The notes below the pieces were generated by a model. The model was not told the DNA's origin. It saw nothing but the letters and a program-made list of their open reading frames with translations, and made no database searches. From Lasiosphaeris hirsuta (lineage: Eukaryota > Ascomycota > Sordariomycetes > Sordariales > Lasiosphaeriaceae), in assembly GCA_030549175.1 (NCBI GenBank), contig JAUKUA010000002.1, positions 4,836,001 to 4,900,000 of the forward strand: 64,000 nt of DNA, read 5' to 3'. Position 1 is the first letter of the stretch. Every line of letters begins with the position of its first letter. Of this stretch, positions 44,758 through 64,000 are shown piece after piece. The position numbers and the translations under genes are program-made.

Positions 44758-46078
44758 TATTATACTAGTAGGCTTACCTAGGTTAATAGAGCTACTAACC
44801 TCCTTAACTAAGTACTAACGGCACAAACTACATACATATAAGTCATATATCCATTAACCTACGAGTATCTATTATAAATTATATAAATAAGGGAACTATC
44901 ACAGAGGATGGCTATAACGTAGCTTAACCTTGGGACACAATCCTACGTGTAGCTTATAGCCTATTTAGCCGACACGTAAGTCAACGGATTCTCCTAAGTA
45001 CCTATAGGTTACGATGGAATGCTTAGAACTATTCATAAGCTAAAGTAGCCGTATAACGGATCTTACCCGTACTAGGTAACGTCATTAGATTTTAAATTTG
45101 TTATAGACAAGCTATTTAACCTCAGTATCGTAGTTAGGGCTTGTATAGTTAGCCCAGATCTTACAGCTAGTCTTTCGAATCATAGACCTTCTCGCTATCG
45201 TTGATATTCCTTTAGAAGACCTAGAACCCGATGTTCTCCGGAGTCTAGCTTTAGTAGCGACAGGTAGCCGTGACCCCCGTATATAAGTCACGAAGGGAAC
45301 TGTTACTATGACAGCTAACCGGGGGATTAACCTAATAGCGTTATAGCTAACGTAAGTACTAAGGACGTGAAGAAACATCTGTAGTAATGGATACCATGCC
45401 GCTAGAGCTGTATAGATAAGTACTAATACCGACTATGAACCGACGTATGATAGGCCGGCTTTACTTAGCTTGTAGCCGCGGATTTGTAAGGTACGAGAGA
45501 CAGGTGGCTAAAAAGGAGATTCGGGACCGACGGGTGGCTAAGAGGATCCTTCAGGTATTTTAGTATCTTATACATAGCCTTCCATAAATAGAACAGGTAC
45601 GTTACGACGGATCCTCGAGAGGAAGAAGCTCCCTAGTTCTCTTTAGATAAACCTAGAAAGATTATCAGCTAAACTTCAGTAAAGCTAAGGGGTAATATAA
45701 CCTTATGAACCCTTCCGTTTCTCCTAACTTACAACTACGAAGCATCGTACGTTATCTTCTGTCACATCGTTCCATCTCCCTAAACCTTCCTCTTCCCACG
45801 GTACATACTACCACTCTGGGCTACGACAATCAACTCCCTCAACCACTGTGCCAAAGCTCTAAATCCCACCTTATGCTCATTAGCCTTACGAAGATTAAGT
45901 CCCTAAGTTCGTCGTGTGAAAGCTCTGAACTAGACTAACAGCAACTGTCGGGGTGGTTCGTTAAACGGTTAAGTCGAGAGTTAGGAAAAGGTTAAAGTTC
46001 TATAGTCTGACCCCTTCATTTGATATCTCACCTTGTGGTTGTCACACCCCAGACCTCCGAGGGCTGGCCTGTGTCACA
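44758..46078 (+). repeat. Chromo-1 3' LTR
   Basis: 1,321 bp, TATTATACTAG (RIP form of TGTCACACTGG) to CTGTGTCACA. Its last 400 bases are among the least mutated Chromo-1 sequence in the window. Confidence 0.92.
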
Positions 46079-46083
46079 GGACC

Positions 46084-46636
46084 AATAAGTAACTAGGAAG
46101 ATCCTTTAGGTATTTTAGTATCTTTATATCATATATATAGCCTTCTATAAAAGAATAGGTACGCTACGACGGATCCTTGAGAGAAAAAAGCTCCCCAGTT
46201 CTCTTTAGACAAACCTAGAAAGATTATTAGTTGAACTTTAGTAAAGCTAAGGGGTAATATAACCTTGTGAACCCTTTTGTTTTTCCTGACTTGTAACTGC
46301 GAAGTCTTATGTCTTATCTTATGTTAGATCATTCTATCTCCCTGAACCTCCTTCTACCTGGCTCTCTACTACTTTATATTATGATAGTTAACTCCCTTAC
46401 TGTTCCGTTCTAAAGCTTTAAATTGGACCTTGTGCTTATTAGCCTTGCGAAGATTAACTCCCTAAGTTCGTCGTATGAAATCTCTAAACTAGACTAATAG
46501 CAATTGTCGGAGTGGTTCGCTGAACGGTTAAGTCGAGAGTTAGGAAAAGGTTAAAGCTCTGTAGTCTGACTCTCCATTTGATACCTCACCTTGTGGTTGT
46601 CACATCCTAGACCTTCGTGGGCTGGCCTGTGTCACA
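46084..46636 (+). repeat. Chromo-1 LTR, second part (split)
   Basis: Resumes the LTR begun at 36598, after the duplicated GGACC, and ends in CTGTGTCACA at 46636. Confidence 0.9.
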
Positions 46637-47137
46637 GATTAGTAGGACGTAAGAAATGAGCAGTTAAGGCCTTAAGCCAGCGAAGCGGCTAAGGAAAGAT
46701 CTTTAGATATTCTAATACCCTTATATATTATACATAACCTCTATAAAAGAGATAAAGGCCCTATAACGGATCCTCAAGAGGAAAAAGCTCCCTAGTTCTT
46801 TTTAAAAATAACCTAGAAAGATTATCAGCTGAACTTTAGTGAAGCTGAGAGATAATATAACCTTATAAACCCTTCTATTTCTTATTAACTTATAACTACG
46901 AAGTATCATTTGTCATCTTCCTTATAATCGTTCCATATCCCTATATCTACCTTCTCCCTCATAACTACCAGGACTTTAGGTTACGAAGATCATCTCCCTC
47001 ACCTTGTGTAAAAGCTCTGAGTTAGACTAACATCATTACTGGCTTAGAGTGGACGGTTAAGTTGATCTAGATCATAGCTCTACAGTTTGGTTACACTGAA
47101 GGTGACACCCCAGCCCTCGGTGGCTGGCCTGTGTTAC
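46637..47137 (+). repeat. LTR-B fragment, left border of the MAT island
   Basis: A diverged relative of the Chromo-1 LTR, here called LTR-B. It matches the 3' half of 53664-54787 better than it matches Chromo-1 and ends GGCCTGTGTTACA at 47137. The 5' half is missing at the junction with the previous LTR. Host-like composition begins about 150 bases further on. Confidence 0.75.
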
Positions 47138-47450
47138 ATTAATATAAGCTTAAGTTAAAAAAATAATTATATACTTTATATAAGAAAAATATACTTTTGT
47201 TATTCATTTTTATTATAAAGATAATATTATATTTCCCTAGAATCATAAAGAAGATTAGAAAGATGAAGAAACAAACTCCAGCACTCTATAATACACAAAG
47301 AATGACTTGCTCAGACTACCTATTCTAGCTCTCTTTGTGATGTTAATGCTGATGTTGATCTTCATCTTTATGATCCTGATCTTCATCTTCAATTCTTCCA
47401 CTCTAGACTCACGTTATCATGCATGCTCCTCATTCTACTCTCTCAAGCTA
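47138..47450. other. Junction between repeats and MAT island
   Basis: The first 130 bases are very AT-rich (runs of A/T, no TpA-only pattern). From about 47270 the composition becomes balanced. Plus-strand frames here are hydrophobic shadows of the acidic minus-strand coding sequence that begins at 47451. I see no gene in this stretch itself; it is probably the 3' flank of the minus-strand gene. Confidence 0.5.
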
Positions 47451-48420
47451 TTACCAATTATCCCAATCATTCCAATCATGGAGGTCATCGAGGTCGTTGT
47501 CGTCGTCGTTATGGTGGAGATGCTCTAGATTGTGATTGTGATTATCGAGATTGTAAAACCAATCGTCGTCGTCCTCGTTGTCATCCTCCTCCTCCACATC
47601 CCCCCACACTTGATGCTTTTATACTGAGGTCGAAACGCTAAAGTCAGTCTGCGAAATCTTAGGCTCAGGTTAGCTTACAACATCCTCATGAGGTCCCCCA
47701 GATACGTAATTCCCTTCCAAACTACGACGACTCAACCAGTATGTTTCTTGGGAGATATCTGTGACTGTGGGTTCTTTTTTACTCACATTTATTTTCTTTT
47801 TTGCAGGCGCTGAGGCGTGACGTTAATTAGACTCGTTTTCAGATGCTAATAACGCACTCACCCCCAATCCCTCATGATACTCGGAATACCGTTGACTCAT
47901 GAAAGACTCAATCTCTAGTCCTGGCTCTGGGATAAATCGTGAGATTCCTGGTCGTGAGCCTGGGAATCGTGAGATTCGTCCTGAAATTTGCGCCTCAAAA
48001 ACTGCCGCTTTTAACCCCAGATTTCCCAAAAACTTGTGCCAAGGAGCTCCTGGGACCACAACCACAGGATGTGGCAATTGGGATAATGCCACTCGTCGTT
48101 GTCTTTGTTGTCTTCGTCGTCTTTGTCTTCGGCCTCGTTTCTGATCATCACCGACCCGTCCACGATTTTGGTATCTTACATGCCCAGAAGGAAGCCAGGC
48201 CGGCCAATTCAGTTTTTGTGAAGCTCGTACGCAGTTTTAAAGGTTTCCACAAGCCTTTGCCCTCCTTGAACCATTTTTTGGAGCTATATGTTGCCACAAG
48301 GCAGCTCAGTGACTTTTTCGAGAAAATCCAGGTATGCGAGGATGTTCTTGGGACCACGTGAACTCGTGGAGTTTGAGTTATCTCATACTCGAGATCTTCA
48401 ATTGACGTATTGAAGGATTC
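47451..48420 (-). pseudogene. Unknown MAT-island gene with RIP-type stops
   Basis: A minus-strand coding trace, patched across frames, reads ESFNTSIEDLEYEITQTPRV, then NILAYLDFLEKVTELPCGNI, an Arg-rich tract, and SQLPHPVVVVPGAPWHKFLG. After an intron (47810-47861, GTGAGT...CTCAG) it reads KKKINVSKKEPTVTDISQ and ends in an acidic, Asn/Asp/His/Trp-rich tail at the TAA 47451-47453. Three in-frame stops (48284-48286 TAG, 47670-47672 TAA, 47619-47621 TAA) would each be Gln before a C-to-T change, as RIP produces. Single-base slips at homopolymers (about 48350, 48213-48217, 47861-47865) also break the frame. No start or domain was identified. Its place suggests a MAT1-1-type gene, but no clear alpha box is visible. 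The opposing plus-strand 140-codon frame (47939-48361) is an alternative I consider less likely. Confidence 0.4.
47810..47861 (-). other. Intron in the unknown MAT-island gene
   Basis: 52 nt on the minus strand: GTGAGT donor, CTAATTAAC branch-like sequence 18-20 nt before the CTCAG acceptor. The coding traces on both sides differ by one base in phase, which one more G in the run at 47861-47865 would fix. Confidence 0.55.
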
Positions 48421-48639
48421 TCATTCTAAGTGTTATTCATTTTAACGTTGGGCTTCAAGTTATCTCAGTCTCAGTGGGGATTTCCCAACGTTCAACACTG
48501 CAAATGAAGCTAATGTTTCTGGGCGACTGGCTGTCCAATCATCTTCATTTATCATCTCGCTTACCGCGCTAAGGAAGAAAAGGTTAAGTGTGACAGTGTT
48601 AATTATTGACGGCGGGTGCGAGAACAAAGACGTATCACG

Positions 48640-48944
48640 TGGCTTTTTCATTTCCAATTTCTTTCACTCTACCCCTCTCTCCCGCTAATTTTCTTTCTTC
48701 CTACTTCATCCTTTTCCACCAATTCTTCTTTCTTCCTACTTCACCTTTTTCTACCAATTCCTCTTTTCTTTCCTTCTTACCTTTCCACAAAACTCATCAG
48801 GGCCCAGTAAATTTGCCAACGACACTCCCATTCCCAATTATCACCCCTTATTCTTTGGAGTCTGGTACTTCAATTCCCCTCAATCATCAATTATTGAGTT
48901 CCGTGCTTGAATCTCAATTTTGAACTTCCCATTACCAATTCATT
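48640..48944 (+). promoter_or_regulatory. CT-rich promoter of the MAT fusion gene
   Basis: A pyrimidine-rich stretch (about 48657-48795) includes a roughly 40-bp near-perfect tandem duplication centred on TTCTTTCTTCCTACTTCA. It lies 150-290 bases before the ATG at 48945. CT-boxes just upstream of transcription starts are typical of filamentous ascomycete genes. No TATA box is obvious. It lies outside the invertible segment, so it would drive whichever HMG box is joined to exon 2. Confidence 0.55.
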
Positions 48945-50225
48945 ATGTCAAAACAGTTCAAAATGGAAATTCATGATCCCGCTTGGGTCCTTCAAACCGT
49001 GGCCGAACACTGGAGTTTATTATCTGCTCAGCTTGGTCACTGGAACGCGAAGAATATTATCGCGATAGATTCTCCCATGTACCGTCGACTTCCCAAGCCC
49101 GTCCTCACAGGCCTATCTTCTGAGGCTTCGTAAGTTCCATTCCCTACTTTCTTTTCTTTTCTGACATTGCTTCAGCAAAACACTCGGAACCGACTGCATA
49201 TGGTTGCGCGATGGTTGTAACACAGATATTTATCTACTCGGTCCGAAGACAACGTTTGAGCCAGATATCATTACTATCAACGATGTCATTTATTGGGACC
49301 CAAAACAAGCCCAGATCCCCCCTCAGATTCCGCCGACCATTCTCCCCGTCGCACGACGGCAGACAGAGACAAAGACAGAGGCAGGGACAGTCACAGGCAC
49401 AGATTGGGATTTTTCGACTTTTCCGTGGGCAGGGCAAAGTTTTGGTGATTCAGCAGATTCGTGGAGAGGGGACGCTGGGAATCTTGGAAAGATTTCTGGA
49501 CAAGATTCTGGCCAAAAGGATTCCTGGGCAGGCCAAACATCAGGGCAAGATTCCTGGGGCCATACAGGACAGAATTTCCAGAATTCCTGGGCAGGAAAGG
49601 ATTGGCAAATGGCAAAAAACTGGACATCAACAACAGCAAACTCGACAACAAACTCGACAGCAAACTGGACATTGGCCTCGACATGCCCAAAAACCTGGAC
49701 ATCGTCCTGTTTGTCAAAGCCAGGCGAGTCAGAGTCTGACCTAACATGGATATCTTGGACAGAACCAGGACAGCAGCCTCACTCACAGTCCAAAATCCCC
49801 CGCCCAAGAAACAAATTCATGTTGTATCGACAATGGAAGGCAAAGAGTATGAGAAAAGAAAATCCAGGGTTGACAGCGGGGTTTTGTGTGAGTTCTCTTA
49901 TCCACAAATATCGTTTTTACTAACGCAGGCAGCCAAACTCATTGGTGAAATGTGGCGATCAGAAGATGCCTCTGTTATTCGACATTTTTCTGAACTTGCA
50001 AAACAAGAAGACAAGAAGCACAAGGAGAAATATCCAGGATATCAATATGCGAGGACCGAGCCACGAAAGCCTCTGAAGTACCCCAGAGGTCACCCAAAGT
50101 CGATAGCATCAAAGACTATTGAGACGACGAAGAAGACTGAGACGAAGACTGAGATTGAGACTCAGATTCAGTCTCAGTCCCCCTATCGAGTCAGGTTTCG
50201 AGAGGTTGAGATGGGAGGGAGATGA
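48945..50225 (+). CDS. Chimeric mating-type HMG protein: MAT1-2-1 N-terminus joined to a MAT1-1-3-like HMG box
   Basis: Exons 48945-49129, 49176-49887 and 49929-50225 give 397 aa with both introns canonical. Residues 1-120 are a MAT1-2-1 N-terminus (SAQLGHWNAKNIIAI at 27-41; YLLGPKTTFEPD at 81-92; IYWDP at 100-104), as in Neurospora mat a-1. Residues 121-266 are a low-complexity linker rich in Gly, Gln, Ser, Trp and Thr. Residues 268-345 are an HMG box (IPRPRNKFMLYRQW, NPGLTAG, IGEMW, KYPGYQYARTEPRK), the PRPRN/GLTAG pattern of MAT1-1-3. The Lys/Thr/Glu/Gln tail ends at 50225. The left inverted repeat (49198-49350) encodes residues 70-120, so the join at 49350 is the inversion junction. The ATG is the first in the exon, after a CT-rich leader; Met7 is an alternative. 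HMG MAT proteins are nuclear transcription factors for mating and sexual development. The open frame across the join suggests it can be expressed. Confidence 0.82.
49130..49175 (+). other. Intron 1 of the MAT fusion gene
   Basis: 46 nt: GTAAGT donor, CTGAC branch site, CTTCAG acceptor. It joins codon 62 (TC/C, Ser). Present only on the left side, so the minus-strand MAT1-2-1 piece lacks it and exon 1. Confidence 0.8.
49198..49350 (+). repeat. Left arm of the 153-bp MAT inverted repeat
   Basis: Identical at all 153 positions to the reverse complement of 51399-51551. It is wholly inside exon 2 and encodes residues 70-120 of the fusion protein. Similarity stops sharply at both ends: before ATATGG and after CCCCGTC. 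At this length it is below the size RIP usually needs, and it shows no RIP changes. Confidence 0.97.
49351..49790 (+). other. Low-complexity linker with several open frames
   Basis: Coding frame residues 121-266 are repetitive (GQDSWAG, SGQDSWGHTGQ, NSTTNSTANWT). The other two plus frames and one minus frame are also open for 90-180 codons, one of them Gln/Arg-rich. This is a by-product of repeated CAG/GGN-type triplets. Only the frame in register with the HMG box is taken as coding. Confidence 0.65.
49888..49928 (+). other. Intron 2 of the MAT fusion gene, inside the HMG box
   Basis: 41 nt: GTGAGT donor, ACTAAC branch site, GCAG acceptor, phase 0. It falls in the same part of the HMG box as the conserved intron of MAT genes. 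The splice leaves the box one residue longer than usual (TAGFCAAKLIGEMW). Confidence 0.7.
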
Positions 50226-50622
50226 TGGAGATGATCGAGGGAGGCTGTTGAGGAGATAAGTTCAGTGATAAAGTGATTTCTGAGATTTCTAAGTTCGTAG
50301 TCTATAGCGCTTCATTCGTAGTTTAGCGCTTCATAGTCCACGTTAAAAGTATCCAGCTTGCATCACGGCTCAGATACGTGATCCTAGAATGAGAGAGCAC
50401 AAAAACCACGAAAAAAATACACACACCCACCCATCAAAATTGAATACCCCCCCCCAAAATACCCAGTCCTGCTGGCCCTCCAACTATCAAAATCTCCCCT
50501 GTGGAACTCTGCGCAAGCACGCTCTTCCCAGTCATCATCCTGATTTGTTAGATTTGTGTGGCAGAGAGGAAAAATTTATAACCAGAGAGAAAAACTCACT
50601 CGTATTGTCCATAACCTGCTCC
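50226..50622. other. Spacer between the convergent MAT genes
   Basis: Shared 3' region of the two convergent genes. It contains a short direct repeat (GTAGTCTATAGCGCTTCA / GTAGTTTAGCGCTTCATAG near 50297-50340) and a run of nine C near 50448. A plus-strand open frame (50389-50730) overlaps the antisense of the MAT1-2-1 C-terminus and has no support of its own. I see no gene here. Confidence 0.6.
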
Positions 50623-51244
50623 CTATTCCAAAAAGTACTGCATCATCGGCGAACCAGACGGCGTGATTCGAACAATGACCTGATTGTCGTGAATCACGGC
50701 CGTGAACTCTGCAGCCAGAAGGGTGAATAGGCGTTGAATGAGGGAGATGGAGTCAAGTTGAGGAAGAGTTTTTACAGCTTGTTCCCACCCCGAGCTCCCC
50801 AGGAATCAGCCCAAAACTCCCCAGCCCCAGGGCACGCAGGCCCAAAAAGCACGCTTCGGTCAACCATGGACAAGTCGCTTGATGATGTGAAGAAAGGCTG
50901 TAGGTCGCTGTCGACTAGCGACGGCGACCATGGGACCTTCGGTTGTATGGGTTTGTCGTTATTGTCAACGTCTATGACATCAGGGAAGAGGTCGCAGAGC
51001 GTTTCGTCGGGGTCAACAGGTGAGGCCAGCCTTCGTCTTCGAACGTTATACTGCTTGAGCTCAAACTTATTTTTTCCTGCCATTGGGGGCAGGTTTCTTC
51101 TCTTGATCTCGGACGACCTTCGTGGTTTGTAGCGGTATTCAGGATGTCGACGGATAATTTCGTCCTTCATAGCCAGAGATTTTGCGTAGTATTTCGCTCG
51201 AACTTCAGGCGTCTCGTTCTTCCACATGGCACCAGTGAGGACGG

Positions 51245-51293
51245 CTGAAAGAATTAGTAAACATAGAGGAGTAAATTGTTAAGAGACGCTCAC
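51245..51293 (-). other. Conserved HMG-box intron of MAT1-2-1
   Basis: 49 nt on the minus strand: GTGAGC donor, ACTAAT branch site, TTTCAG acceptor. It splits a Ser codon (T/CC) in HNNEIS-V, the hallmark intron position of ascomycete MAT1-2-1 genes. Confidence 0.88.
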
Positions 51294-51398
51294 AGATCTC
51301 ATTATTATGAATCCCACCGTGGCTCTCCTTCAGCTCCTTGTGTTTGTCCTTACGGTACAAAATGTAGGCGTTGGGGGGTCGTGATACTTTTCTTTAAT

Positions 51399-51551
51399 GA
51401 CGGGGAGAATGGTCGGCGGAATCTGAGGGGGGATCTGGGCTTGTTTTGGGTCCCAATAAATGACATCGTTGATAGTAATGATATCTGGCTCAAACGTTGT
51501 CTTCGGACCGAGTAGATAAATATCTGTGTTACAACCATCGCGCAACCATAT
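51399..51551 (-). repeat. Right arm of the 153-bp MAT inverted repeat
   Basis: Exact reverse complement of 49198-49350. It ends at ATAT (51548-51551), immediately before the palindrome at 51552. Confidence 0.97.
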
Positions 51552-51611
51552 CTCAAACGTTGTCTTCGGTCCGAGTAGATTTATCTACTCGGACCGAAGA
51601 CAACGTTTGAG
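51552..51611. repeat. 60-bp palindrome built from the inverted-repeat core
   Basis: Perfect 29-base arms (51552-51580 and 51583-51611) around a 2-base loop. Each arm is a copy of a 28-base core also present in both inverted repeats (49233-49260, 51489-51516), with one difference (CGGACCG in element sense instead of CGGTCCG). The core thus occurs four times in 2.4 kb. It could form a cruciform or hairpin. On the minus strand it adds a second in-frame LLGPKTTFE before WLRDGC. Confidence 0.93.
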
Positions 51612-51686
51612 CATATCTGCCTCTGAAATAAATGATGACATGAATGTCCCTGTTTCCAACGAATCTCCTGTCGAATTCTCTGACAT
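51585..51686 (-). other. Short open frame upstream of the decapitated MAT1-2-1
   Basis: Minus-strand frame starting MSENSTGDSLETGTFMSSFI and ending at a TAG inside the palindrome. Balanced composition, preceded by a CTAAC...CAG acceptor-like sequence near 51745. It could be the remains of an exon that once led into this side of the locus, or chance. Plus-strand frames (51526-51759, 51644-51865) overlap it and are equally unsupported. Confidence 0.2.
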
Positions 51687-51960
51687 CAATGCTGTCGAAT
51701 CTGTCGTCGTCGTCTCTCTCCCAAGAATCCGTCTATCTCCCTGTCTCTGTCCTCGTTAGAAAAGTCCAGAGTAGAATGGTATTGAAAAGGCAGAAAACCT
51801 CGACTAAGATTGAGTCCAAGACAAAGGACAAAAAGATAAAAGTAAAGTGGCAGACAGAAATATAGGGAGACTAACCTCCAGATACTTAGATCCTTATTGT
51901 TTCATCTAGTCACTATTTACTATCGATTTCTAATTCGTCCCATTGCAGATGTTTGGCTTA
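51612..51960. other. Right edge of the MAT island
   Basis: Composition falls from balanced to AT-rich over this stretch. It contains GTCGTCGTCGTC, a short purine-rich part near 51800-51860 and the short frames described above. No recognisable gene, and no sign of APN2, SLA2 or COX13, the usual MAT neighbours. Confidence 0.5.
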
Positions 51961-53650
51961 TTTTGGGTTAATTTATATGTTAAAAATACGAGACTTGTAT
52001 TAAGAGTGTTATTTATCTATAATCTTAATAATTTTCATTGATAACATAGCTCTTTATATTAAATATATTAAAAGAACTATCTTATACCCAATCTTAATGA
52101 TATTAATTGAAGTTTATAGTTTAGCTCTTATTTTAAATACGCTAAAATATTTAAGACTTATCTTATACGAATTATCTTTAAAATTGATCGTAGAAATTTT
52201 ACTTTATTAGCTAACATCTTACATTAAATATATTAAAAATTTAAAACTTTTGTTAAGAACTGTAATTTTATACTTTATTTTAGTACTCTTGATTTATTAC
52301 CAACGTTATTTTAAATATATTGAAAGATTTCAAAACTTTTATATAATAACTATTTCATTATTTAATAGTATTAACCTTGACTAGTAATTATCATTATTTA
52401 ACTATTGCCTTAATATATAAAGAATATATAAGACTTATTTTAAGATATGGTTTTATACGTAATCTTATTAATCTTAATTTAACTTTGAAATTTAAATATT
52501 CAAGATATATTTTGACAATTATCTTTATAGTTAATCTTTACAATCTTAATTTATAATCTAACCATTTTATTTAAATACGTTGAACTTATTTATTACTTAC
52601 CTTAGGAGATCTATTACCGTTCTACTTAATCTTAGTAATTATCATTGAAATTTATAGTTTAATAATAACTATTATCTTCACATTTAATTTTAATAATTTT
52701 TTATATAAGCTTATGAGCTTATACAGCTTTTCTTAAATTAAATAACTTTAAAATAATTGATACTTATTTTGTTTAAACTATTGTCTTATAATAAGTTATA
52801 GTAAGTTTAATTTACGTTTATAATTATTATTTATATAATTAATCTTAAAAATCTTAATTGAAGGTTATAATTACTTACCTCTTTATATTCAATGTCTTTT
52901 CCATATGTAAGATATTTAAAACTATTACTTCATCTTAATAAGTACTTAACTTAAGATTAAATATGTTAAAAGTATTTAAGCCTTATTATTAAAACTTTTA
53001 TCATCTTTACAAAAATATAGGGTTTAAGTTAATAATTTACAGTTAACCATTTTATATTATATATAATATAATACATCTTTAAAAACATATGTCTTACTTA
53101 ATTTCTTTTACTCAATATATTAATATAACTTAAATGTTAACTATACGAGCTTTAACTTTATCTTCCTCAGAAATCTTTACTATAGTAAGTATATAATCTT
53201 ACTTAGAAAATATCATCTTCTATAATAGTTATTAACCTTAGTAAGTCCTTAATGAACGTTTTAGTCGTTTAATTAACTCTCTATTATATTTGGCACCTTG
53301 GAAAATCTTAAGCTACGCTCTTTTATTATACTTAACCTTAACTACCTTTCATTACCTTTATAATTTATTTTACTCTTACTATAATAAACTCTTTGAAATA
53401 TTTAAAACTTTTTAATTTTAGAAGAACTATTTTATTATATTTCATGACCTTATGAATCTTCATTTATCTTTATACTTAATCATCGCAGCATTAATTTTAA
53501 TTTCAAGTTACGTACCTTTTCATATTAAATACATTAAACCTATATAAGATGTATCTTCTAAAAAAGATTATATTATACTTAAACTAAGTAATTATAATTT
53601 ATTACGTAACTCATTTTTTCAAGTACATATATTTTTTGACTTAATCTTAT
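51960..53650. repeat. Degenerate AT-rich tandem array
   Basis: Loose repeats about 85-100 bases apart with the pattern AATCTTAATNATNTTAATTG, a stretch like TTTATAGTTTAACTCTT, then TTAAATATGTTAAAANNTTT. Examples of the AAATATTTAAGACTT-type line are near 52145, 52230, 52325 and 52425. Too decayed to give a consensus by eye. No gene is visible. Confidence 0.55.
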
Positions 53651-53663
53651 TAACCATAGTTTA

Positions 53664-54787
53664 TATCACACTGTTAGGCTTACCTAAGGTTAACAGGGTA
53701 ACTTACTCCTCTAACTTAAGCCCACAGTGATGGCTACATTGTAGCTCAACCTATGGAACACACACACCTAGATTCACACTAATAGGTTTATACGACTTCA
53801 TGAAGCGGAACTAAAATCTACGAGGGAACTAAGGGATATTTAGGCTAGGCCTCGGGAACTTAAGTACTACTCATAAGATGATCTGGCCTACCTAGTGGAC
53901 CTAGCCTACACTTAGTATGTTATCTGACTTTAGAATTGTTATATACGGCCGTATAACCTTAGTATTGTAGTCAAGAGTTACATTAGCTGCTAAAAGACCT
54001 ACCTAATATTTCAACGGTTTTTTAAATGACAAACCTCTTAGCTATTGTAATAGCTTTAGTAAAAAACCTAAATCCTGACATTTTCTAGAGTCTAACTTTA
54101 GTAGTAACAAATATCAGTAGTTAAACCTCTATAAGTCATAAAGAGAAACGTTATCATTTGACGAAAGTACTAAGAACGTAAAGGAACCTTCGTAGTCAAG
54201 AATATCATGTTATTGGAGTAAGTATTAATATCGGCTGTAGACTATTCGGCTATAGACTATTAAGAAGAAGGTTAATAGTACTTAACTTAAACCTTAATTT
54301 ATAAGATGTAAGAGATAAGTGACTAAGGTTCTATACTGGTAGGTAACTAAGGAATGATCTTTATATATCTAGCCTTTATAAAGAGACGAAGGTTCTATAA
54401 TCGATCCTCAAGAGGAAGAAGCTCTCTAGTTCTTTTTAAAAATAGCTTAGAAAGCTTATTACTTAAACTTTAGTAAAGTTAAGAGGTAATATAACTTTAT
54501 AACCCTATTTACTTCTTATTAACTTATAATTATAAAATATCGTCAATTATCTTTTTTATTATCGTCTTATCTCCTTAAATCTACCTTCTTTCTTATAACT
54601 ATTAAGACTTTAAGTTATGAAGATTATCTTTCTTACTTTATAAAAGCGCTAATTTAAACTAATATTATTACTAGCTTAGAGTAGATGGTTAAGTTAATTT
54701 AGATCGTAGTTTTATAGTTCGGTTATACTAAAGCTAATATAACTTGTGATTATTATATCTTAGTCTTAGTAACTACCCTATGTTATA
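53664..54787 (+). repeat. LTR-B, complete copy
   Basis: 1,124 bp from TATCACACTGTTAGGCTTACC to CCTATGTTATA, with the same general ends as the Chromo-1 LTR but consistently diverged and shorter. Shares its 3' half with 46637-47137. RIP-altered, more strongly after about 54,000. No clear target duplication. Confidence 0.75.
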
Positions 54788-54910
54788 AATAATCTTTTTA
54801 CTTTAAAAATACTTACTTTAATAATGACTAAGATAATATCTTTACTCTTCTCTAACTTAAACGTTATAATAATTTAGGAAAGAGAGCTTAACGTAACTAC
54901 AGAAACGAAA
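54788..54910. other. Short AT-rich spacer
   Basis: 123 bases between LTR-B and the solo Chromo-1 LTR. It ends in the first CTTAT of the duplication. No feature seen. Confidence 0.5.
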
Positions 54911-54915
54911 CTTAT

Positions 54916-56240
54916 TGTCACACTGGTAAGCTCACCTAGGTCAACAGGGTCACTGACCCCCTTGACCGAGCCCTACACCAGTGGCACGAACTACATACAT
55001 ACACATACCCATTGACCCACAAACATCTATCATAGATTACGTGGATAAGGAAACTATCACAGAGGATGGCCACAACGTGGCTCAACCTCGGAACATGATC
55101 CCACGTGTGGCTAATAGCCTATTCAGCCCACACACAGGTCAGCGGATCCCCCGAAGCACCTACGGGTTACGATAGAATACCCAGAACCACTCACAAGCCA
55201 GAGTAGCCATACAATAGATCTCACCCGTGCTAAGTAACGTTATCAGACTTTAGATTTGTCATAAACAAGCTACTTAACCTTAGTATCGTGGTCAGAGCCT
55301 ACACAACCAGCCCAGACCCTGTAGCTAGCCTTTTAAATCATAGACCTCACTACTATCGCTGGCATTCCTTTGGAAGACCTAGAACCCGCCGTTCTCCGGA
55401 GTCTAGCTTCAGTGGTGACAAGTAGTCGTGACCCCCGTGTGTAAGTCACGAAGGGAACCGTTGCTATGACAGCCGATATAGGATCGACCTAACAGTGCTA
55501 TAGCCAACGTAAGTACTAAGGACGTGAAGGAACACCTATAGCAATAGATACCACGTTACTAAAGCTATATGGATAAGTACTAATACCGGCCGTGGACCGA
55601 CGTGTAATAGGCCGGCTTCACTTAGCTTGTAGCCGTTGATTTGTAGGGCGTGAGAGACGGGCGGCTAGAAAGGAGATTCAGGACCGACGGACAGCTAGGA
55701 AGATCTTTTAGGTATTTTAATATCTTTATATCCTATACATAACCTTCCATAAGTAGAACAGGTACGCTACGACGGATCCTTAAGAGGAAGAAGCTCCCTA
55801 GTTCTCTTTGGACAAAACCTAGAAAGATTATCAGCCGAACTTCAGTGAAGCTGAGGGGTAATATAACCTTATAAACCCTTCTGTTTCTCCTGACTTGTAA
55901 CTACGAAGCATTGTATCTTATCTTCTGTTAGATCATTCCATCTCCCTAAACCTCCTTCTCCCTGGCTCTCCACCACTTTACATTACGACAGTTAACTCCC
56001 TCACCGTTCTGTTCTAAACCTCTGAATCAGACCTTGAGCTTATTAGCCTTACGACGATTAAGTCCCTAAGTTCGTCGTGTGAAAGCTCTGAACTAGACCA
56101 ACAGTAATTGTCGGGGTGGTTCGTTAAACGGTTAAGTCGAGAGTTAGGAAAAGGTTAAAGCTCTGTAGTCTAATCCCTCATTTAATATCTCACCTTGTGG
56201 TTATCACACCCCAGACCTTCGTGGGCTAGCCTGTGTCACA
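54916..56240 (+). repeat. Solo Chromo-1 LTR with target duplication
   Basis: 1,325 bp from TGTCACACTGG to CTGTGTCACA, flanked by the perfect 5-bp duplication CTTAT (54911-54915, 56241-56245). This is an insertion whose internal part was lost by LTR-LTR recombination. One of the least RIP-mutated copies and a good reference for the family. Confidence 0.95.
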
Positions 56241-56245
56241 CTTAT

Positions 56246-56791
56246 AATTTATGGATTTTTTAAGATAACTGTTATAATTATTAAGAAATATCAATTACTT
56301 TCTTAAACCTCTCAAATTATCTCTAATATACCTAGATAACTTACAGAAGCTTACTAGTTAATAGTAAATATATGTTAAGAACTTCGTTTTTATATAATTA
56401 ACGTCTAAAACAATAAAAGCTAGTTTAATATCTTAGTTAATAACTTACTACTTTGGATTATACATATATGAAAGAACATAGCGAAGGGCTTTGAGATTAT
56501 TACCATGTACATTATAACCTCTCGCATTCATACGAAGGTAAGGCTTATGAAATTCGTTACAACTTGTAACCTTGTAGAACGATTTAATACCATACAATTT
56601 GTAACAAGAATAACTAACGGATATTACGATTTTAAAAATTGAGATAATGTTAGTAGAGTCGTGATAACAAGCGGTAAAGAGACGAGGTTTCTTAGTAACA
56701 CAATTGTTAAGTATGATACAAAAGGAAGAAGGAAAAGGTTTATCCCGTAGTCCTTTATAAGAAAAGAACCGAGGAAAAGGAAGGAGGTACG
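56246..56791. other. AT-rich sequence without recognised features
   Basis: Strongly AT-rich up to about 56,450, then somewhat more balanced, with purine-rich stretches (AAAGGAAGAAGGAAAAGG near 56,720). No long frame and no similarity to the other repeats here was seen. Confidence 0.45.
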
Positions 56792-57223
56792 TATCACATC
56801 CTATTTCATACTAAGAAGTCATATGATATGGAGCGTGAGATTAGATGGCGAAGTAACTAATTAACAATGTAGGTAGAGAAGAATACTCTTACTCTCCTTA
56901 CACTTTGCTACAAAGTAACAGAATAAGTAGGTCAAAGGATATAATCTACTTAGTACGACTACCTTCTAAATAGATACAAATTGCTAACGTATAGACACCT
57001 TAGAACGTGAGGATTCGTATTCCTACGTAAATAATTATATTTTATTATATCCCAAGGTACTACTTCACAACTCTGTTAATAATAATCTGTTTGACAGAAT
57101 GTGACACACGTCTAAGAACTTTACCTTCAAATTAATCAATCCCCTTCATCCACTTAGGCGTTCTACCTTACGATCTATTATTCAACACTGAGTAATCTAT
57201 TACTCAGTGCACAGGTTGTAACA
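56792..57223 (+). repeat. Third LTR family, RIP-altered copy
   Basis: 432 bp, TATCACATCC to GGTTGTAACA, matching 58265-58738 along its length but with many C-to-T and G-to-A changes and some deletions. No matching flanks. Confidence 0.8.
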
Positions 57224-58264
57224 GAAATATCAATTATAGACACAGGGCTTTGTAATCTAGTCTACCATAACTCTCCCATCCTCCTTTACGTTAGATAAAC
57301 CTTGGGAAATCCAAAGTGTAGGCGGCTCCGTGAGCGTGTAACTTTACCTAAGAAATAGGTTACCTTCCTCTAATCTATCTTTTCATATCTCAATATGAGC
57401 TTAAGAAATCTTAACTATAGGTAGCTCTGTAAGCATGAAATCTTACTTAACTATCATCTTCCTTTATACTCAACGACCTTAAAGAAATCTTAACTATGGA
57501 TAGCTCTATGAGTGTATACTCTTACCTAAGAAATATCTCATTCTCCTTTTGCATTTAACGACCTTAAGAAATCTCAACTGTAGGCACTCTATGGGGGCTG
57601 TCAAGGCTTTAAAATCTAACTAAGAACTATTATCTTCCCTCATCTGCCTTTTAAATATTAATACGGCCTCAAATGTTAACTGTGGAGCTCTGTGAGCTTG
57701 CAATCTATCCTAAGAACCATTTTGATACTACCTCAAATCTTAACTCTTGGCGTTGTAATCTCTCAATATGAGCTTAAAGAAATCTCAACTGTGAGGCTTT
57801 GTAAACGTCTCTATGGGCTGATGGTTTGTTTATCTAACACTCCTCCTTCATACGTTAGATATATCCTTGACAAATGTTAACTAGGTAGCTTTATAAGTAT
57901 ATAATCTTACATAAGAAACATCTTGATACGGTCTTAAATCTTAACTCTGAACGTTATAATCTACTTACCCAACTCTCTTATCCTTCTTTAATACTTGATA
58001 GGTAAGAAATATTAATTCTAGATATTATATTTAACCTAAGAACCATCTAGATACAACCTTAAAGAAATGTCAATTTTAGACGGCTCTATAAGTGATATAA
58101 TCTTTTTACCTAACTCTCCTTACGTTAGATATACCTTAAGAACTACTGGAGACTTTATAATCTTGCCTGGAATTATCATCTACCTCTCATCTACCTTTGC
58201 ATCTTAATATAACCTTAAATTTTAACTATTAGCGGCTTTATACGTTGTAATCTTACTAAGAAAT
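57224..58264. repeat. Degenerate tandem array, part 1
   Basis: Repeats about 75-95 bases apart of the pattern CTTAAGAAATCTTAACTATNG, then GNAGCTCTNTNAGCNT and ATCTTACCTAAGAA. Clear examples are near 57402, 57481, 57554 and 57776. Continues after the LTR at 58739. No gene is seen. Confidence 0.65.
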
Positions 58265-58738
58265 TGTCACATCCCACTTCGTGACAAGGAGTCATGTGAC
58301 ATAGAACACATAATTGGACGGCGGAACAGCCAATCGTACGACGACGCTCTCGTGCTCTCTCCACTCTGTCACGGAGCGACAGAGCAAACAGATAAGGACG
58401 CTCCTAGTTCCCCAGCACTCCCACACAGGGCAGCAGAGTAGGCAGATCAAAGAATACAATCTACTTGATATGACTACCCACTAGATAGGTATAAGTAGCC
58501 AACGTATTAGACACCTTGGAGCGTGAGGATTCTTGTTCCTCACGCAAGCAATTACATTCTGCTGTATCCCAAAGTTTACTCTATAACTCTGGCGATAGCA
58601 ATCTGTTTGACAGAGTGTGAACCCCGTCTAAGAACCTTACCTTCCAATTAATCAATCCTCCCGTTCTATTAGGCGTTCTGCCTAGCGATCTGTCATTCAA
58701 CACTGAGTAGCCCTCTACTCAGTACACAGGTTGTAATA
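58265..58738 (+). repeat. Third LTR family, solo LTR with target duplication
   Basis: 474 bp, TGTCACATCC to GGTTGTAATA (TG...CA type with one RIP change at the end), flanked by GAAAT on both sides (58260-58264, 58739-58743). Nearly free of RIP, unlike its neighbour 1.5 kb away. Inserted in the tandem array. Confidence 0.88.
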
Positions 58739-59092
58739 GAAATATCATCCTCTTTTATACTTAACGACTTTAAGAAATCAAACTATAAGTATCTCTATGG
58801 CTAAAATCTATTTCTTAACTTTCCTCTATACTAAATATAACCTCAAAGAATCTTAACTATATGTAGTTAATAAGCTTTAATCTATTTACCCTCTACTATT
58901 CGGCTTATCTACGTTTTCCACCTTTACCTCGACAACCTTAAATATTAACTATAGGTTATAATCTTAAGAAATATCAACTCTAGTTATTATAATCTTACTT
59001 AAGAATTATCCCGTATGACCTTAAAGAAATTTCGAGATAGCTCCATACACGATGTAATTTATTTACCTAACTCTCTTCTTTTATAAAAGATA
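58739..59092. repeat. Degenerate tandem array, part 2
   Basis: Same pattern as 57224-58264, resuming after the LTR insertion and running to the TA where the pogo-like element starts. Confidence 0.6.
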
Positions 59093-59094
59093 TA

Positions 59095-60059
59095 ACGTAC
59101 GTGATAAGCGAGTGATACAGATAAGCGAGTGACACACTTTCTACCACCTCAATATAACCAACGTCAATTACACAACCATAATACTAGGAAACAACAATAA
59201 CTAAATCAGAAACAGATGAATCAGACGACTCTACAGCCTCCTTACATGTACGTACATTATAGCCAGGCCTTCCGTACACGCTACAGCACCGAATCTTCGT
59301 ACGAGACCCCCCTGAACCACTACCATTTTGCCGTGTTTCCTAAATTACCTACTCACCCATAGCCTTCTGATCCAGTAGATCCTATACCTCTTGTACAGTA
59401 AGTAACCCTCTAAGCCGTACACGTGTTTTTTTAGCTCTCCGTCACTTACTAAGCCCCTTATTAGCCTTTCGAAGTACTGAGACCTCTATACGTAGAAAAG
59501 CCACTTCGTATATCACAGCCATCGTACCTTTAGCTAATTGGTCCATAGTAGTTAACATTAGGGTTAGAGAGCTACCTTGATAGTTAGAAATTTAAGTTTT
59601 GATAAATGCTGACTATGAGTTAGCCTCTCGAGGGTTATATAATGTTTAGGAGATCTAATATAATACTGTAGTTAGGCTTGAGGCTAGGGGTGTTAGAGTC
59701 CGGATACGCACATCCAACGTAGATATTACCCTCTCTGGGTCGTATGGTATAAGACCGGCTCTAGTAAAACCTTTCTAGATATTCTTTTCTATGATCGAAG
59801 TAAAAAATACTTCTTTAAACTTACAAAGAAACTTTAACTTACTGATATGTATAATGTTTATCCGTATCAACTACTTAATTTAGTAGCTATACACTTTCTT
59901 TAACGGCCTAAAACAACTAACATCTAATGGCTAAAGTAGATGTGAAGAGTACGGAGGTATATAGAGTATGATGATATTATACTCCTGGCAGTAGGTCTCG
60001 AATTCTTCGGAGTGGTAGCTATCGTAGCCGTCGAGAATCAACAGTCGGTATATACCTTT
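59095..60059 (-). mobile_element. Pogo-like transposon fragment
   Basis: Begins after TA (59093-59094) with the inverted repeat ACGTACGTGATAAGCGAG and follows 22767-23730 of the complete element closely. At 60060 it is cut by the Chromo-1 LTR. Only the 3' half of the transposase region is present and it has many stops. The other half would lie beyond the window. Confidence 0.85.
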
Positions 60060-61372
60060 TGTGACACAAGCCAGCCCTAGGAGGTCTGGGGTGTGACAAC
60101 TACAAGGTGAGATATCAAATGAAGAGTCAGACTGTAGAGCTTTAACCTTTTCTTAACTCTCGACTTAACCGTTCAGCGAACCATCCCGACAATTGCTATT
60201 GGTCTAGTTCAGAGCTTTCACACGATGAACTCAGGGACTTGATCTTCGCAAGGCTAATAAGCACAAGGTCTGATTTAGAGGTTTAGAACAGAACGGTGAG
60301 GGAGTTAACTGTCGTAATGTAAAGTGGTAGAGAGCCAGGGAGAAGGAGGTTCAGGGAGATGGAATGATCTAACAGAAGATAAGACATAATGCTTCGTAGT
60401 TATAAGTCAGGAGAAACAGAAGGGTTCACAAGGTTATATTACCCCTCAGCTTCACCGAAGTTCAACTGATAATCTTTCTAGGTTTGTCCAAAGAGAACTA
60501 GGGAGCTTCTTCCTCTTGAGGATCCATCGTAGTATACCTGTCCTACTTATGGAAGGCTATATATAAGATATAAAGATACCAAAATACCTGAAGGATCTTC
60601 CTAGCCGCCTGTCGGTCCCGAATCTCCTTTCTAGCCGCCCGTCTCTCGCGCCTTACAAATCCGTGGCTACATACTAAGTAAAGCCGGCCTATTACACATT
60701 GGTCCATGGCCAGTATTAGTACTTATCCATATAGCTTTAGCGGCATAGTATCTATTGCTATAGGTGTTCCTTTATGTCCTTGGTACTTACGTTAGCTATA
60801 ATGCTATTAGGTCGATCCTATGTCGGCTGTCATAGTAACGGTTCCCTTCGTGACTTATACGTAGGGGTCGCGGCTACCTGTTACTACTAAAGCTAGACTC
60901 CGGAGAACGTCGGGTTCTAGGTCTTCTAAAGGAATGTTAACGATAGTAAGGAGGTTTATAATTTAAAAGACTAGCTGTAGGGTCTAGGTTGACTGTGTAG
61001 GCTCTGACCACGATGTTAAGGTTAAATGGCTTGTCTATGACAAATCTAAAGTCTAATGACGTTATCTAACGTAGGTAAGATCTGTTATACGGCTACTCTA
61101 ACTCGTGAGTAGTTTTGGTCATTCCGTCGTAACCCGTAGGTACTTATGAGAATCCGCTGACCTACGTGCCAGCTGAGTAGGTTACAAGCTACGTGTAGGA
61201 TCATGTCCTAAGGTTAAGCTATGTTATAGCCTTTCTCTGTGATAGTTCCCTTATCTACGTAATCGTGGGTTAATAGATATATACTTTTTGTATATAGTTC
61301 GTGCCGTTAGTATAGGGCTCGGTCAAGGAGGTCAGTGACCCTGTTAACCTAAGTGAGCTTACTAGTATAATA
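60060..61372 (-). repeat. Chromo-1 3' LTR, reverse
   Basis: 1,313 bp from TGTGACACAAG to AGTATAATA, inserted in the pogo-like fragment. It is followed directly by Chromo-1 internal sequence, as at 4902. Confidence 0.9.
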
Positions 61373-64000
61373 CCATCCCCCTCCTAGAAGGACTTATCTC
61401 AAGTCCTAGGGTTAAGAACCCTAGGGTCTTTTAGCTTATATAGGTACTTAATGTAGAAGTCCCAAAGTTTCTAGATGTTAAAGAAGTGTTTATATGGTTC
61501 CTAGGTCTAATCCTTCTCTTCGGGGTATCTATCCCATTTAACGAGATATTTTACTATCCTTTTCTTAGTATAGGAATTTATAATTTCTTCTACTACGAAT
61601 TTCTCAAAGTAAACATCTCCTACTTGCTCCAAGACCTAAATAAGGTCAGGGATCGGCTAAGAGCCGGTTCGGAAAGGTTTAATAAGAGAGACATAGAAGG
61701 TAGGATAAATTTTCTAACGCTTCGGAAGTTCGAGTTTCATAACTATGGGAGATATTATCTTAGAGATTTTAAATAGGCTGAGTAACTTTCTGTCTAGCTT
61801 TTTGGAAGGTCTCTTAGTCTTAATATTCCGTACGTTAAGTATTACTAGTTACTTTTTCTCAAAGGAAGATATTTCCGTTTACTTCCGATCTATATACTTT
61901 TTTATCTGTTCCTAAGATTTCTTAAGGGTTTCGTAGAGGTTCTCATAAACCGTGGTCATCTAATGTATTATAATTTTATTATACGGGTTACGTGTAGATT
62001 TATTAGGTAGGTTATTCGTGGCCGGATGATATCCGTAGTTAACGTAGAAAGGAGAGCTACTAATAGAAGTCGACCTAGTGTTATTTTATGTAAATTCGGC
62101 TGTAGGTAATAAAGTGTCCCAGTTATTTATCTCATAGTTAACGAAGGCTCTGAGGTAAGCCTTGATATACTAATTAAGACGTTTAGTCTAACTATCTATT
62201 TCGGGGTAGAACGAGATTAATATCTTTAGCTTAACTCCGACGTATTTAAGAAAGTCGTACCAAAGGCCTATGTTAAATCGTAAGTCCCGATCAGAGATGA
62301 TATCAAAGGGTATACCGTGGTATTTCTAGCATTTGTAGGTAAAGAGAGAGATTAAGTTTTTTATCTTCTTAGTGTTATCCTTTAAAGGTATAAAATGTAC
62401 TATCTTAGTAAAGGTATCGATAATGACTTAGATAAAATTATATCTATTAGAGAGAGAAAGGTCTATTATGAAGTCTATTAAAATAAGCCTCTACGGGAAA
62501 TATTCTAGCTCGATAAGATAAAATAGTCCGAAAGGAAGGTAACGTCTTAGCTTGTTACTTTGACACTTATGATAAGAGTATATAAAGTCAGTGACGTCTT
62601 TCTTGAGATTCTGCTAGAACATGTACCGTCTGATAAGTTTAACGGTCTTATTTATACCTATGTGGCCTACTACTTTAATGTCGTGTTTAGAACGGATGAT
62701 CTAGATCTTAAGTTCCTTGTTGTTAGAGATCTAGATACGATTCTTTATAAATAAGATTCCGTCTTCGTTAGTTATGTCTTTTCTAAGGGAAACCAAGGCC
62801 TTTTAATAAGTCTCGTCTATAAAGGTAGTAACTTTAATTTACTCGAAGAATTCTTCGTTCCATTTTAGTGTTGAAATGTTATAAAGACGTACTTTTAAAA
62901 ACATAAATATAAGAACTTTAGAATGTAAGAAATGTTCTTTGTTTAAAACAGAGGTTATTAGTTAGTTTTTATCCCCCCTTCCAGAAGGTACTTTTCGTGC
63001 TGTAAGAGAGTATTTGCCTTAGCATTTTGTGTACCGGGACGGAAATTAATGACGAAATCGAAGGTAGTAAGCTACTAAGCCTATCGGGCTTAGTAGCAGT
63101 TAAGGACCTTGGTAGTCTAGAAGTATTCTAGATTATAATAGTCTAAGAAGACCTCGATATGATATTTAACTCTTTTAAAGTAATATCTCTAACGTTAGAA
63201 GTAATTAACTATCGCTAAGAGTTCCTTATCGTAGATCTCGTAGTTAATTTCTATAGGAATTAGCTTCCTTAAGTAGAATATTATAGGATATATCTTGTCG
63301 TTATCTTACTTCTATGATATTATTTCTTCTAACGTATAGTCTGACGTGTTAAGTTCGATAATAGGTAGTTTATTAAGGTTAAAATAGACTAGAATAGAAG
63401 CTTCGGTAAATGCTTTCTTTAACGCTTTAAATGCCGTGTTCATTTAGTTGTTCTATGTCTAGGTCTTTTAGGTAAGGTTTGTAAAATCAATAAGTAACTT
63501 AGTAATATGTAAATAGCCTTTGATATAGTACCTATAAAAGTTTACAAATCTATTAAATTACTAAACTTCTTTTACCGATTTTAGCTATTCTTATGAAAGG
63601 ATATATTCTATCTTATCCTTCGATATTATGATACCTTTAATATTGATAATATAGCCTAGGTATTCCAATTCCTTAGTATCTTATATGTATTTAATAAGAT
63701 TAATAGTTAGATTATATTTCTAAAGTCACTTAAGGACTTTAATAACAATTTTGTCATGTTCCATTTTAGAACTTGTATAGATAAGAAAGTCGTCAATGTA
63801 AGACAGGAGGCCTTAATCAATAAGGTCTCGAAAGATATGATTTATCATATCTTAAAAGGCCATAGAAATATTAGTAAGGCCGAAAGACATTACGTTAAAC
63901 TTAAAAAGACCGTAACAAGTTCGAAATGTTATTTTCTACTTATAATCTTTTTTTATCCGAATCAAATTAAAGCCTAATTTCAGATCTATCTTTATAAAGA
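61373..64000 (-). pseudogene. Chromo-1 pol, 3' part, running off the window
   Basis: Colinear with 4902-7530. From left to right on the plus strand: chromodomain about 61.45-61.62 kb, integrase about 61.92-62.78 kb, RNase H about 62.96-63.43 kb and reverse transcriptase from about 63.56 kb to the edge, where the minus strand reads FGLTN and DMINHIF. Several short plus-strand frames (61486, 62560, 63756) are antisense shadows. RIP stops throughout. The 5' LTR lies outside the window. Confidence 0.85.

Follow-up and report, generated by a model that had tools for sequence, protein, structure and literature searches.

The window analysed here is a 64,000-nucleotide stretch of contig C7 of the Lasiosphaeris hirsuta assembly (Sordariales, Lasiosphaeriaceae), and its mating-type sequences lie close together. 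An open frame on the minus strand (47823..48236) matches MAT1-1-2 (PF17043, E 1e-07, profile positions 74-145 of 146); this divergent neighbour lies outside the invertible segment described below and was located, as an open frame, by a genome search. The intergenic region at 48421..48944 would, judging from the gene models, contain the putative single promoter of the gene to its right and perhaps of MAT1-1-2 too. That gene opens on the plus strand with an ATG in exon 1 (48945..49129), a MAT1-2-1-type N-terminus conserved in MAT1-2-1 orthologues. It continues across a 46-bp intron (49130..49175, plus, GT...AG in frame) into the first part of exon 2 as modelled (49176..49197, plus), which lies just outside an inverted repeat.

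The arms of this repeat occupy 49198..49350 on the plus strand and 51399..51551 on the minus strand. By exact string search they are 153 nt long, 100% complementary and separated by 2,048 nt, just as the initial annotation had described them. The same annotation had placed 120 codons outside the repeats; exon 1 and exon 2 up to 49350 do amount to 120 codons, of which about 69 precede the arm and stand outside, while the remaining 51 are the repeat itself and encode the stretch of the MAT1-2-1 N-terminus that stops just before the HMG box. A chance origin of the arms was rejected, as perfect inverted repeats in 50 first-order Markov sequences built from the 12 kb around the locus had a maximum length per sequence of 12-22 nt (mean 14.8). 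A dispersed repeat or transposon end was rejected as well: when the 44.4-Mb genome was searched with window positions 48900-51900 and the best candidates were scored, the arm sequence was found only at this locus and on C6, a small contig of the same assembly. No known RNA element reached its gathering score within the window.

Two gene endings converge between the arms across a spacer at 50226..50771, and each carries an HMG box that passes the Pfam cut-off, which bears out the earlier description of two different boxes at opposite ends and in opposite directions. Ending A, on the plus strand at the left, consists of a low-complexity linker and the first part of HMG-A (49351..49887), in frame here with the shared N-terminus, an intron within the box (49888..49928) whose exact splice sites are uncertain, and the second part of HMG-A with the C-terminus up to the stop (49929..50225), as read from the frame and Pfam. 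Its box lies at 49795-49878 and in the next exon (Pfam E 2.2e-12 for the spliced pieces), and on C6, where the NCBI model splices HMG-A slightly differently, the box scores E 3.8e-16. Ending B, on the minus strand at the right, has the first part of HMG-B at 51294..51398, an intron read by eye within the serine codon of NNEIS (51245..51293), and the second part of HMG-B plus C-terminus at 50772..51244, which reading frame, profile and homologue matches support. This box spans 51268-51384 and 51132-51236 (Pfam E 1.8e-19, spliced pieces).

The identity of the gene as MAT1-2-1, proposed in the initial annotation, was upheld by a protein homologue search with the shared N-terminus joined to HMG-B, an X being placed at a frame break. 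It returned 18 matches, 17 from outside Lasiosphaeris hirsuta; those bearing mating-type names were mat a-1, MAT1-2-1 or FPR1, the rest being mostly hypothetical, and the top match, from Cercophora newfieldiana, had 37% identity over 92% of the query. In an alignment (A1) of 14 of the 17 non-self matches (P0017, P0018 and P0019 left out), the N-terminus belongs to MAT1-2-1 and the arm stops just ahead of the HMG box, so that joining the shared start to HMG-B restores the MAT1-2-1 order and the orientation in the window cuts the gene at that point. Together, the N-terminus and HMG-B make up the conserved N-terminus plus HMG box of a MAT1-2-1 protein. The genome has 13 HMG matches; six of them belong to C6 and C7, and the remaining seven do not resemble MAT1-2-1. 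In a 24-row tree of HMG boxes, from which P0017 was omitted on purpose and P0019 was missing because the motif did not pick it up, HMG-B groups with the MAT1-2-1 rows; this group has 17 members, one of them a stray on a long branch, and its support is 87/86.

At the far side of the segment, beyond the right arm, the minus strand has a stop 11 codons ahead of the arm in the arm's own frame, and whichever ending is joined there has neither the exon 1 start nor the sequence upstream of exon 1. The anatomy therefore suggests that the two endings would be used in a mutually exclusive manner.

Both orientations of the segment are present in the assembled data. The assembly comprises 14 contigs, four of which (C3, C4, C5 and C6) are 21-30 kb long. 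C6 (21.6 kb; 21,614 bases) follows the normal order against window positions 46445-49350 and from 51399 onward, into C7 past the window, and runs in reverse against 49198-51551; it thus covers the same locus, but with the segment flipped and the breakpoints falling precisely at the arms. The initial annotation had called for a search for both orientations, and C6 provides the second, with both flanks in normal order (2.7 kb on the left, 16.5 kb on the right, collinear with C7 and with 0 substitutions). A comparison of the complete C6 sequence (21,614 bases) with the locus in flipped form showed 46 indels and 0 substitutions. Of the indels, 43 involve one base and three involve two; 42 of the 46 are bases missing from C6, and most lie in or beside homopolymers. 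Both C6 arms are exact by string search. Homopolymer indels are an error pattern of low-coverage long-read consensus, assuming that long reads were used. Judged by their sequence context, the indels between C6 and C7 are of this sequencing error pattern and not divergence, and since they sit mostly at homopolymers the flip is the only difference between the two contigs that does not resemble sequencing error. A second, duplicated MAT locus was rejected because 0 substitutions point to the same place and not to a diverged copy, and a genome search in which the best candidates were scored found the locus on C6 and C7 and nowhere else.

On C6, exon 1 and with it the 120 shared codons run into HMG-B, the MAT1-2-1 (mat a-1) domain order that is shared by the 14 aligned orthologues. 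The 2,048-bp segment is bounded by perfect 153-bp arms that belong to the MAT1-2-1 coding sequence, and it is assembled in both orientations. As read from the two contigs, exon 1 and the 120 codons stay constant, and the segment presents them with either HMG-B or the linker and HMG-A, the other ending being headless. The proposal in the initial annotation that a flip would exchange the ending on a shared N-terminus is supported by this arrangement, with HMG-B on C6 and HMG-A in the window. The reading frames are not flawless. In the window an apparent single-base indel puts HMG-B and the arm in different frames. The C6 copy of HMG-B, which departs from the window sequence in two homopolymers, is likewise out of frame, and exon 1 of C6 carries two one-base indels. 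Because the two copies disagree with each other in homopolymers, these coding-frame indels are likely to be consensus errors in both C6 and the window, although the frame break in HMG-B may alternatively mark a real pseudogene.

We consider it probable, and clearly the better bet, that MAT1-2-1 contains a switch which works by reversible DNA inversion and alternates the HMG-B and HMG-A endings. Homologous recombination between the arms would flip the segment and at the same time keep the arms identical. In one orientation nuclei would possess MAT1-2-1; in the other they would be without it and would instead make an N-terminus::HMG-A protein and be MAT1-1-like, this protein acting alongside MAT1-1-1 and MAT1-1-2, which stay the same in both orientations. 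One haploid could thus give rise to unlike nuclei able to mate, and a flip at meiosis or in the mycelium would fit equally. The fuller form of this proposal, in which a constant N-terminus is alternately joined to the DNA-binding domain of MAT1-2-1 or MAT1-1-3 by programmed inversion, with two-way mating-type switching and both nucleus types in a single culture, is advanced more tentatively, and we would put its chances a little short of even.

HMG-A belongs to an HMG box gene adjoining MAT1-1-2, and since homothallic Sordariales cluster these genes it is probably MAT1-1-3, an assignment that draws on synteny and HMG type. Protein searches with 22 and 1711 candidates found no relatives of HMG-A outside Lasiosphaeris hirsuta. 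Its box is about equally similar to L002, another HMG gene of this genome (39%), and to MAT1-2-1 (up to 38% over the full box), and in the tree of 24 rows it forms a long branch and is unplaced. An NCBIfam search of proteins P0002 and P0003 gave no match, and a PDB search of P0002 returned generic HMG boxes only.

The strongest rival, which we regard as a serious possibility likewise somewhat short of an even chance, is that the inversion is real but serves only as an on/off device for MAT1-2-1, with the HMG-A fusion a by-product or not expressed. The long branch of HMG-A and its lack of recognised relatives outside the species agree with this, as does the flip in Sclerotinia sclerotiorum, which truncates MAT1-1-1 with no alternative ending mentioned in the available text of the report (PMC3574095). 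The earlier statement that the left half reads open holds, as one frame of 397 codons connects the shared start with the linker, HMG-A and a stop, and this continuity speaks for a functional ending; however, at least four of the six frames are open across the low-complexity linker (49391-49739), which makes the open fusion weak evidence of selection, and this point, too, is compatible with a by-product. The on/off reading accounts less well for a box that stays above the Pfam cut-off and has an intron inside it, and for two short linker arrays whose period of 12 preserves the frame.

A less likely explanation, which we would nonetheless give a sizeable minority of the probability, is a stable inversion polymorphism in a mixed culture (several ascospores or a heterokaryon), in which each nucleus type breeds true. 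A single assembly fits such a mixed origin as well as it fits switching. Against this, the 0 substitutions over 21.6 kb fall in an AT-rich, RIP-mutated region and point to the same lineage, and arms without a single mismatch are what recurrent exchange would produce. If such a pair went through meiosis the same mixture could arise anew, and the polymorphism thereby shades into a meiotic flip of the S. sclerotiorum type.

Least probable is that the organism has one fixed orientation and that C6 arose artefactually, from a read that was chimeric or wrongly corrected or from a fold made by the assembler at the repeats. The contig is small and of lower quality, with its 46 indels, and C5 is an example of a contig seeded by a read that looks artefactual, but C6 spans the entire 2.35-kb unit and both flanks, reads of the length we infer should not be misled by a repeat of 153 bp, and the other three small contigs are collinear. 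Read correction could lift a single read to 99.8% identity, as in C6, whereas ligation chimeras and missed adapters would give no clean inversion between normal flanks. The three other small contigs served as controls. The middle 6 kb of C3, C4 and C5, compared by search only, each match a large contig at 99-100% (the C3 middle being 86 bases shorter than its counterpart), and all three are redundant but collinear with large contigs. C6 is the only one of the four small redundant contigs that is rearranged, which counts against an assembler making random inversions. C3 and C4 differ from their counterparts in that about 10 kb at one end is rich in indels (outside the middle 6 kb, the base-by-base comparison covered C3 from base 95 onward and C4 from base 226 to 228 bases short of its end), and C5 has a poly-C run of about 300 bases where the main contig has about 20 (L043:3213-3523, G000:C5), an expansion that is probably a sequencing artefact. 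These indel-rich ends and the poly-C expansion suggest that contigs in this assembly can rest on few or odd reads.

The nearest parallel to the proposed switch is found in S. sclerotiorum, in which Inv- and Inv+ forms differ by an inversion between 250-bp motifs that is argued, in the portion of the report available, to come about by homologous recombination and to leave the repeats unchanged; the two forms segregate 1:1, MAT1-1-1 is truncated, and both are self-fertile (PMC3574095). As both orientations are self-fertile there, a flip need not set mating identity. A MAT inversion has likewise been proposed for Ciboria shiraiana in the part of the source at hand (PMC10569646). So far as these excerpts go, L. 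hirsuta and S. sclerotiorum have in common identical inverted repeats within MAT coding sequence (250 bp there, 153 bp here), a kb-sized segment whose flip leaves the repeats unaltered and alters the gene that contains them, and a complete gene in one orientation only with a startless gene end on the far side. Both orientations with otherwise identical sequence occur here as well, in C6 and C7 of one assembly. In contrast, the gene changed in L. hirsuta is MAT1-2-1 rather than MAT1-1-1, whereas in S. sclerotiorum MAT1-1-1 is truncated and MAT1-2-1 and MAT1-2-4 lie inside the segment, according to the accessible text (PMC3574095). L. hirsuta also has an HMG box on both endings, where that text mentions no alternative ending, belongs to the Sordariales, and has its MAT1-1-1 about 127 kb away.

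Flip/flop inversion is also described, in the sections available, for the budding yeasts Ogataea, Komagataella, Pachysolen and Ascoidea, where inversion between inverted repeats likewise selects the MAT information, and in Ascoidea rubescens the repeat takes in the 5' end of MATa1, a likeness to L. hirsuta (PMC6692504, PMC4238957). In these partial accounts the yeast MAT genes change places between a site where they are active and one, close to a telomere or centromere, where they are repressed, with the silencing mechanism in Pachysolen unclear, whereas in L. hirsuta one of two endings would be fused to a single promoter and N-terminus and the other would, by its anatomy, lose the promoter. 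Homothallic Sordariales of the Sordaria macrospora type carry mat1-1-1, mat1-1-2, mat1-1-3 and mat1-2-1 clustered in one genome, as far as the consulted extract reports (PMC12734299). The same four genes occur together in L. hirsuta, MAT1-1-3 only probably; however, in that extract they are separate genes, while in L. hirsuta two of them would take turns, by inversion, at a common start, and about 127 kb separates the alpha gene from them. Outside the fungi, bacterial HsdS and phage tail-fibre inversions join a constant N-terminal part to alternative C-terminal parts, usually with dedicated recombinases and short sites, whereas the present case involves 153 bp of homology in a eukaryote.

Window positions 1-47000 and 52000-64000 are AT-rich, bear a signature of RIP and contain no open frame of 150 codons, and the mating genes therefore form an island in RIP-mutated DNA. 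The composite RIP index is positive in 59 of 64 one-kb intervals, namely all those outside 47001-52000, and ranges from -0.16 to -1.21, without a RIP signature, in the parts of the island; that arms and core are free of the signature counts in favour of the switch. Arms of 153 bp are below the size usually attacked by RIP. Direct repeats at 44844-45726 and 55002-55962, in RIP-mutated DNA, flank the island; they are 69-83% identical and represent two families, spaced about 10.16 kb apart. Some 127 kb to the right of the switch, at C7:5014605, is MAT1-1-1, identified by its alpha box (E 1.8e-32). This alpha gene (L023:4599-5843) is overlapped by a low-complexity frame of 1,050 codons that has no Pfam match (L023:5282-8434), and its second exon continues into low-complexity sequence. 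About 80 kb beyond MAT1-1-1 is an I/LWEQ gene, which we take to be of the SLA2 type. Two APN2 candidates from a GRF zinc-finger search, on C1 and C9, were set aside as their reading frames were, by eye, not APN2-like.

No inversion that exchanges a DNA-binding domain on a shared start was found in the literature searched, in part through extracts and mostly outside subscription journals and preprints. Within the same range of sources, inversion-type MAT switching was found in Sclerotiniaceae and budding yeasts only, and none in Sordariales. If the proposed switch is real, it would bring inversion switching to the order of Neurospora, Sordaria and Podospora, with a flip that swaps a DNA-binding domain instead of merely cutting a gene, and would offer a testable system for the origin and upkeep of repeat-mediated inversion and for haploid self-fertility. 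Since both states could be read from one assembly, small redundant contigs elsewhere may hide similar switches. Directly outside the right arm, at 51552..51615, lie partial extra copies of the arm sequence, and across 51488-51615 a piece of the arm recurs in both directions as a palindrome (34 nt, 97%), which looks like a template-switching scar from the birth of the second arm.
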